Positions 6,301 to 9,300 of a DNA stretch of 64,000 nt are shown one piece after another (the stretch's first letter is position 1; every line of letters begins with the position of its first letter). The position numbers and the translations under genes were made by a program. Source of the stretch: Centroberyx gerrardi (Eukaryota; Chordata; Actinopteri; Beryciformes; Berycidae). The DNA is taken from the NCBI RefSeq assembly GCF_048128805.1, contig NC_136010.1, positions 18,418,980 through 18,482,979 on the forward strand, read 5' to 3'. The notes under the pieces are model-generated. The model saw only the letters and a program-made list of their open reading frames with translations, searched no databases and was not told where the DNA came from.

Positions 6301-9300
6301 GCATAATATTAAGATTACATTTTCCATAAGTATGCTTTTGGATTGTATTTCAGCAAAATGACATTAAGAAAATAATACAATACATAGTATAGGTCTCCAC
6401 AAACAAACAATGTTAAACAAATAAAACACACCCAATGAAACGGCCACAAGCGATGACTTAAACCAAGTCGTTGACGCTTGGTCTGCATGTACAGTTAGTG
6501 CTGAGGATAAAGTGACATAAACACACACATACCGTACTGGCCATCTGAAGCCCTGGGTCCATCAGGCCAAGGATATCATCACTGTAACTTGACTCCAAAC
6601 TAATAATGTCATCAATGACATCGTCCATCTAAAGCAAGACGACACAACAAAAAGGAAAATAACGCATGAATAACTACATCGTAGATCAGACGAGCAAAGA
6701 TAACTGCCAGTGTCGCTGTGAGAAAAGTCTGTGTGATGAGGTCAAACACAAACAATCTCGAGCTACAGTACTACAGATGCCTGCTGGGTGAGCTACATTC
6801 TGGAGGAGAGGCCTCTCACCTCTTTCTCGCAGTTAGAGTTGAGGGTCAGTAAGGCCATAGGGCTGTTGGGGGCGCTGTTGCCCGGCCCGGGCGGCATGCC
6901 CCCGTGGTCAGAGGACTGGTTGGGGCAGGGCAAGCTCACCACCTGAGAGCCGAGCTTCCCCAGGTACCGCTTCACCTGCTGCTGCTGGGACTGCTGGATG
7001 TGGTACTTGGTCGGGTTCTCCAGGTGAGTCTGGACCTGTTGGACAGGAGTGGAGGGGAGAAGGAAGGGAGCAGGGTAGGAAGACAGACATGTGTAGGAGA
7101 AAAGGGACAAAAAACAGAAAGATTTGAAGATATGTATTAGTGGGAGGAACAACATCTGGGTTGAAAAAAGGTCGGTGGGTGCATTGGTGATTATGGGTGG
7201 CCTCCGATCCGAGGAACGTTGTTCACTTAAGCCAGAAATCTAAGTATATGTTATAAGAAGTCATATTGGCAAACAAAATGTCATTGAGCTGAGGAAGTTA
7301 ATAATTACACCTTAAACTGACCAATATGTCATGCTTATAGTCGCTGTTTGTTTATTTAGTTATTTGCTGTGCAGTAAAACAGCCATCCTGCTGCAGAATA
7401 GTCTTTTGTTAGAATGAAATGATAGCGAATACATTTAAAACTCTTTTTTGTTCTTAGTTACAGTATTGATTATAATACGAAAATAAACTGGACACAGTTC
7501 TCAAATCCAAAGATACATTATGTATCTTTCGTTTGAGATGTTAAGTATCGTTATCACAATATGAGTCTCACTACTAGTCCCAAACTATTCTATAAATATT
7601 GCTCTTAAATTAACGCTAATGTCTGCTTTTCTATATTCAGAAAAACAAAAATGTTATATAAAAGATAATACGCACATTTGTATCTCTTTTCCCGCATAGC
7701 ATTAATGATGCACAAAAAATACTGCAGGCAGATTAACAACAGTGTTTGTCTGCCTGAAATATATTTTGTATGGAGCAGTAATGCCGTTTGGGCCTAAGTT
7801 TGAAAATCTATATTTAAACATTCCCATCTTTTGCCTGAGTTTTTGATGCCATGATCGACTGATGGACTGATTTTGCAGTTCGTAAAAAAAGACAATACGT
7901 CACTGGATGGAAATACATAAATACATATACATACATAAACATTACTGTAGTTAATAGTAGATTTTTAAGATGTTTTTTCCAGTGATAAATTAGGTAGAAT
8001 GCAAGTCTGATACTATTTCATGTCATTATTCATGCAAAGTCTTATAAGTTGCTTTGAGTGTCTCCCCTGCAGGGAAAAAAAAATCCATAAAAGACACAGT
8101 AAGATTAATTTAAAACATACCTGATGAGGATAATATCCAAGCATCTCAAGCATATTTTCAACTTCTTTGGTCCAATTTAAGAACTGTTTGCTTTAACTTC
8201 TGACTTTATGTTTAACAAGGCTATGAAGGACTGTAACCTGGGACAGTAGCTGGTTCTCTCTTGGTTTCACCACAGGAATAAGCCTCATAGTATGAGGACA
8301 GACACATCCAGTTCATCTTATAAATGGCAAGAAAAGTAATTAGATATGCATGTTAGGAAATCTCAGTAAAATACAATGAGCCTTTTCAAATTTGTGTTGT
8401 TTTATGTAAAATCTGAATTTATGCCTTTATGGCTCATCTCCTGACGTCAGGATGTGGCGCTAACAGTTAGTTTCTTTCTTTTGCAAGGTCACCTCGTTTA
8501 CTGAAACATGCCTTGGGCCTTTTAAGTTGCCCCATCCACTTCAACCCTCTGGCTGGTTGGTGTGTGTTCCCAACATAACTCATCACAAAGTAAAGAGTCC
8601 ATTACATCCTCATTTGTCTGCAGGGTATGTTTTCCTGTGCCTCTAAATGAATTTTGTGATTGTTAAGGAAGTGCATACTTTGCCTCAAAACCAGCCAACA
8701 TACACAATGATGAATAAAAGTCTAGGCTACTTCATTTTTTAAATTGATGCATTTGTTCTGCTAAAGCCCAAGGGATTTGGGTTCATTAACGGAGCTGCAG
8801 AGGTCACAGGCTCCAGACGAACTCTTAGTTCCCTCTGATATTTCCTCTGCCGCCGGCTCATTCTGTGAAAAATCCTTGAGCCTGCACACTCCGCTCAAGA
8901 GTTGAAATGAACTGATGTAAAAATCAACTGATAATGACGACAAATATTTCAGGACACATGGAGCCTAAGGAAATTTCACAGTTGGTTTGTGCTATTGCTA
9001 GGCATGGATATTCAATATCTGTGGAAATTGACTGCTAGCAAAGCACAGCGACACTCTAGAGAGTAGTCTGCCTTACCACAGGCCCACATGTTTGTAACCA
9101 TGTAATATTCTGTTGATAAATGCCCACAAAGTTTGCTTTTCAAGCCACGCAGAGTTAAGTCTTGTAGTCAGATTTTCTGTATACCAACCGGATACAGTAG
9201 GCTATTTCAGTCTGCATTTTAGATTTGCTGAGTTAAACACGTAACACATGGCATATCAAATAATGCAGATATTTGGTGAGGCATATGGTTGAACTCTCAA

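Follow-up and report, generated by a model that had tools for sequence, protein, structure and literature searches.

The mitfb gene of the teleost Centroberyx gerrardi likely retains an M-type alternative promoter and first exon. The main new result is that the promoter stretch running from the CRE to the TATA-like box, beyond the CRE alone, is conserved at the sequence level against the M promoter of mitfa. Fish mitfa and mitfb serve as a textbook example of duplicates that divided the promoters of their ancestor; an A/B copy whose M promoter is conserved and apparently usable would mean that this division is incomplete or one-sided in C. gerrardi. The element would be of a known kind, an M-type promoter with its exon, in an unexpected copy; it appears better preserved than a relic of duplication age and is probably functional.

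A complete mitf gene lies on the minus strand of the window (the whole 64-kb stretch analyzed, C14:18418980-18482979), with exon M located between exon 1B and exon 2. Its coding features are the following.

25910 to 26013, minus strand: exon 1A, coding part, open, with donor
15440 to 15680, minus strand: exon 1B, open, with acceptor and donor
8121 to 8153, minus strand: exon M, M-type first exon, coding part, 33 nt from ATG to CAG, 11 residues, phase 0
8115 to 8120, minus strand: splice donor of exon M, CAG/GTATGT, at the same place as the mitfa donor CAG/GTGAGA
6820 to 7035, minus strand: common exon 2, acceptor CCTGTCCAACAG, phase 0
6533 to 6628, minus strand: exon 3
5899 to 6010, minus strand: exon 4
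5384 to 5476, minus strand: exon 5
5224 to 5280, minus strand: exon 6
4440 to 4515, minus strand: exon 7
4111 to 4258, minus strand: exon 8
2888 to 3304, minus strand: last coding exon, with stop

Exon M has its own ATG, an 11-codon frame and a donor, and its phase 0 matches exon 2. When joined to exons 2-9 it yielded an uninterrupted 415-residue frame, and this short M-type protein gave Pfam matches to MITF_TFEB_C_3_N, HLH, and DUF3371. Exons 1A and 1B joined to exon 2 yield the long mitfb form. For exon 8 of mitfb alone, solved MITF chains were the best match, ahead of TFE3 and TFEB. An earlier note on this DNA had described a 33-nt M exon with donor GTATGT in phase with exon 2, inside a mitf gene that also keeps 1A and 1B. 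Both descriptions hold: the coordinates and phases are right, and 1A and 1B are each open with splice sites.

When the 779-Mb genome was queried with exon 2, we found three matches besides the window. One belongs to a second mitf gene on C5, where exon M reads MLEMLEYSHYQ, is followed by the donor GTGAGA, and precedes exon 2 by ∼1.1 kb; the other two we take to be TFE3 and TFEC, judging from their exon 2. On C5, exon 1A was undetected at E 0.05 within 180 kb, and exon 1B is degenerate, still open and 44% identical to mitfb 1B. The window gene keeps 1A and 1B, its C5 partner has lost or degraded them, and on this exon content we assign the name mitfb to the former and mitfa to the latter. The mitfa 1B (L007:8779-9033, on C5) carries an AG acceptor-like site in fitting phase and the donor AAG/GTAAGA; unlike 1B of mitfb, it no longer has the RQQLMREQ stretch. 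A comparison of the N-terminal mitfa protein with viral contigs returned three pattern matches, none of which was a relative.

Genes that we take to be frmd4b-like and arl6ip5-like adjoin both mitf copies in the same order, and a presumably lmod3-like neighbor was found only beside the C14 copy within the 180 kb (C5) and 104 kb (C14) compared. Pfam returned PRA1 for the arl6ip5-like piece and no match for the other two. Matching blocks between the two regions are largely collinear, with some off-line repeat-like matches. Across spliced exons 2-9, mitfb and mitfa are identical at 285 of 389 aligned residues and at 52 of 110 four-fold sites. Because the neighbors are shared and just under half of the four-fold sites agree, the pair is ancient and probably derived from a genome duplication, and a recent segmental duplication is rejected on the same two grounds. 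The ancient fish genome duplication is placed at ∼250-350 My in the part of the source available to us (PMC1890551).

With both loci in hand, chance similarity of exon M was assessed with 11-residue words from all six frames of 180,000 bases on C5 plus 103,979 on C14 (∼284 kb together). Among 567,830 words compared with MLEMLEYSHYQ, only the mitfa exon itself (11 identities) and mitfb exon M (7) reached at least 7 identities, which rejects a chance match. The next-best words had 6 identities (n = 3), and GT followed none of them.

Upstream of exon M, the elements shared with the mitfa M promoter are listed here with their offsets from the CRE start.

8442 to 8449, minus strand: perfect CRE TGACGTCA, shared by the mitfa M promoter
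8414 to 8423, minus strand: CATAAATTCA block, identical in mitfa, +26 (mitfb) and +25 (mitfa)
8392 to 8401, minus strand: AACAACACAA block, identical in mitfa, +48 (mitfb) and +47 (mitfa)
8339 to 8348, minus strand: CATATCTAAT (mitfa CATAACTAAT), CAT..CTAAT, a site that we take to be POU/Brn2-like, +101 in both copies
8317 to 8323, minus strand: TATA-like box TTATAAG (mitfa counterpart GATAAATAAAG), +126 in both copies

Element order is thus the same in both M promoters and spacing agrees within 1 bp, with exactly 126 bp between CRE start and TATA start in each copy; the POU-like and TATA patterns, the other elements, and the segment ends were all chosen after the alignment had been seen. The TATA-like box and perfect CRE that the earlier note placed above exon M are confirmed, the box starting 170 bp above the ATG and the CRE a further 126 bp from the TATA start. 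Besides 8442, the CRE sequence has one further occurrence in the 64 kb, at 39089.

In the CRE-to-TATA comparison of mitfb with mitfa, 89 of 142 aligned columns were identical and the alignment scored 109; the best of 5000 dinucleotide-preserving shuffles scored 74. Leaving out the CRE lowered the score to 93, still above every one of 5000 such shuffles, the highest of which reached 68.5. In a separate test on 400 bp the score was 43, whereas 2000 shuffles peaked at 36 and control windows from elsewhere in the introns peaked at 29 for mitfa (183 windows) and 25 for mitfb (64 windows). The gapped alignment is the informative test of this likeness; an ungapped 137-bp comparison was not decisive, its 59/137 matches being equaled by one other window among 8268 in the mitfb intron, with which it shared first place. 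A DNA search of the whole genome with 8100-8560 recovered no sequence other than the query, and the likeness between the two promoters thus lies below ordinary blast sensitivity.

Exon M of mitfb matches that of mitfa at 24 of 33 nt and 7 of 11 amino acids; for the 40 nt on each side, compared ungapped, the counts are 8/40 and 16/40. Were exon positions to agree only as often as four-fold sites do (52/110), the probability of at least 24 matches would be 0.0027. Residues 1-5, 7, and 11 are the same as in mitfa, and residues 6, 8, 9, and 10 are altered. Counting by Nei-Gojobori gave 3 synonymous differences over 4.8 sites and 6 nonsynonymous differences over 28.2 sites, 33 nt being too little for a dN/dS estimate. 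We take mitfa exon M to differ from human exon M at a single residue. The altered codons were counted against a working M exon. GYYPHQ in place of EYNHYQ had been read as a sign of drift; the changes are real and fall in codons 6, 8, 9, and 10, but they are weak evidence against function, since the effect described for an M-type start is the omission of exon 1B. According to the portion of PMC7470386 at hand, MITF-M is distinguished by the absence of the cytoplasmic-retention domain that exon 1B encodes. The altered half of the exon M coding sequence may therefore matter little.

The earlier note had left open whether this copy makes an M transcript or carries a slowly decaying relic. The second half of that choice did not survive in its simple form: slow decay of the mitfb M promoter ever since the duplication is very unlikely, because the conservation against mitfa extends over the promoter from CRE to TATA rather than the CRE alone. 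The same conservation favors use, at present or until recently. From the sequence we take it that selection acted on the M promoter during much of its history and either still does, the option we prefer, or was lifted fairly recently.

Release within the last tens of My, after the promoter had worked for most of the time since duplication and then lost its use in this lineage, is the alternative that survives best, and we consider it unlikely. It would account for the amino acid changes in the second half of exon M, and likeness between two copies bears witness to selection that acted in the past, not to selection acting now. We also modeled survival, taking the neutral rate to be 2, 5, or 8 per billion sites per year and assuming an indel share as well. 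Under these assumptions, an unused exon and CRE would keep start, frame, and donor intact with a 5% chance for ∼77, 31, and 19 My, respectively, which leaves room for such a release. Against it, nothing is broken among start, frame, donor, CRE, TATA-like box, and spacing; this argument, like the survival calculation, is subject to ascertainment bias, the exon having been noticed for being intact.

Alternatively, the conserved block could be an enhancer or a part of A/B-promoter regulation of mitfb, with exon M a mere passenger. In the whole-intron comparison the promoter block ranked third (E 0.003), collinear with two stronger elements of the same intron (E 7e-56 and 2e-19), so regulatory conservation in this intron need not mean a transcription start; the minus-strand control of that comparison gave a best E of 0.5, and exon M itself appeared only at E 6. 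However, the spacing of the conserved elements is fixed all the way from the CRE to the TATA-like box, and the two copies agree better within exon M (24/33) than in the sequence on either side (8/40 and 16/40). We regard this alternative as improbable. Lastly, recent gene conversion from mitfa, by which the likeness of exon M would be silent on selection, has nothing in its favor beyond the likeness itself and is rejected as scarcely credible, given that 9 of 33 exon positions differ, the 40-nt flanks are as dissimilar as stated, and the longest exact shared words in the promoter-exon stretch are 10 nt, without a long identical tract.

On our preferred reading of a retained, working M promoter, CREB-type and neural-crest factors would drive transcription from a start ∼20-30 bp below the TATA-like box (about 8293-8302). 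Exon M would be spliced to exon 2, giving a short Mitfb-M protein that lacks what 1A and 1B encode. The analogy of MITF-M suggests a mostly nuclear protein, the cytoplasmic-retention domain of exon 1B being left out, and Mitfb-M would act alongside mitfa in melanophores. In such a scheme mitfb would be a generalist able to start at A, B, or M, and mitfa, which has lost 1A and is losing 1B, would have specialized in M. An apparently intact, well-preserved M promoter suggests that mitfb may still help make pigment cells. As a separate observation, both M promoters contain an upstream ATG (window 8288; mitfa -144) that opens a frame of ∼30 codons and lies near or above the predicted start site.

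The arrangement resembles mammalian MITF-M and teleost mitfa in its short exon with its own ATG, its MLEML start, and its direct joining to exon 2 (PMC7470386, in the portion available). It also resembles them in its upstream CRE, which a table in PMC5028829 places at -147 to -140 as TGACGTCA in human MITF-M, and it shares the 126 bp CRE-TATA spacing with mitfa of the same genome. Unlike in those systems, exon M of mitfb sits in a copy with intact 1A and 1B, its residues 6 and 8-10 differ from mitfa, and classical LEF1 and PAX3 sites were not recognized. The same table names SOX10, PAX3, and LEF1 sites for human MITF-M. CTTTGWW was absent from 747 bp of either copy's M promoter region, where only scattered SOX cores occur (those of mitfb at -225, -437, and -556), and one crude homeodomain pattern standing in for PAX3 found no such site. 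An ACAAAG just above the mitfa CRE has no counterpart at that place in mitfb. SOX10, PAX3, and LEF1 sites are not clearly present in the M promoters, and we counted this against a working mitfb M promoter.

An M-exon homolog inside a teleost mitf-b gene has a precedent in pufferfish, where Altschmied et al. (2002) reportedly described the M exon of mitf-b as a remnant; in C. gerrardi, by contrast, start, frame, donor, and promoter layout are intact. In the literature on fish mitf copies, no M-type start was described in mitfb of any teleost among the matches listed, as far as the available portions of those papers extend.

What those portions do report bears on how cleanly the two copies have divided their work. 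In medaka, mitfa and mitfb both appear to be expressed in neural crest cells; mitfb single mutants have no melanophores at 2 days and recover partially, mitfa single mutants look normal at 2 days, and double mutants are without melanophores, xanthophores, and leucophores (PMC10617610, available portion). Medaka mitfb is accordingly a second teleost mitf copy with reported neural crest expression and a melanophore role, similar to what we propose, although the likeness is at the level of the gene only: the main text of PMC10617610, as available, contains neither "isoform" nor "exon 1". The need for mitfb in the earliest medaka melanophores would fit a generalist mitfb with a usable M start, and the mitfb M promoter offers a concrete candidate mechanism for that role. 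The clean division of teleost copies into M and A/B forms, which the earlier note took as known, needs care for the same reason, medaka apparently expressing both copies in neural crest and relying on mitfb for early melanophores.

Other fishes point in both directions, again in the parts of the sources at hand. In a killifish line with mitfa inactivated, black pigment appears later in life, and the authors suggest mitfb as a possible cause (PMC10010688). All four mitf copies of brown trout are expressed in skin, and its two mitfb copies show no difference between differently colored skin regions (PMC8770521). Counted against a working M promoter were zebrafish, where mitfb expression is reported from the retinal pigment epithelium but not from neural-crest melanocytes (PMC3489725), and two fighting-fish knockouts with no detectable wild-type mitfa, in which melanin was completely lost (PMC8321530). 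The fighting-fish result implies that redundancy between mitfa and mitfb is not general. In some species, Mitfb-M might mask mitfa loss in color mutants. A broader idea, which we offer tentatively and hold to be possible rather than probable, is that in many teleosts mitfb, not mitfa, keeps all ancestral starts including a working M promoter, and that Mitfb-M has an important early part in driving melanophores and other pigment cells, a role at which the mutants of medaka hint. If true, the textbook division of M to mitfa and A/B to mitfb would hold only for zebrafish and some other lineages.

Further conserved blocks were found at the two mitf loci, two of them entered here as features.

13352 to 13560, minus strand: conserved noncoding element, candidate enhancer, 83% identical to C5:29225390-29225600 over 212 columns
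15060 to 15209, minus strand: second conserved noncoding element, just downstream of 1B, 73% identical over 150 columns

The first lies in the intron after 1B and was found in only two copies genome-wide, one each in mitfa and mitfb. It includes a 23-nt identical stretch, GGGATCAAGACAAAGGCAAGCAC, whose ACAAAG core we take to be SOX-like. The blocks flanking 1B, 15060-15209 and 16296-16431, are 73% and 72% like C5:29224299-29224430 and C5:29222577-29222714, respectively. Outside the window, ∼4-6.5 kb below the mitfb stop, C14:18415310-18417751 matches C5:29253850-29255264 in three blocks of 640, 117, and 247 columns at 71-80% identity, which are perhaps very long conserved 3′ UTRs.
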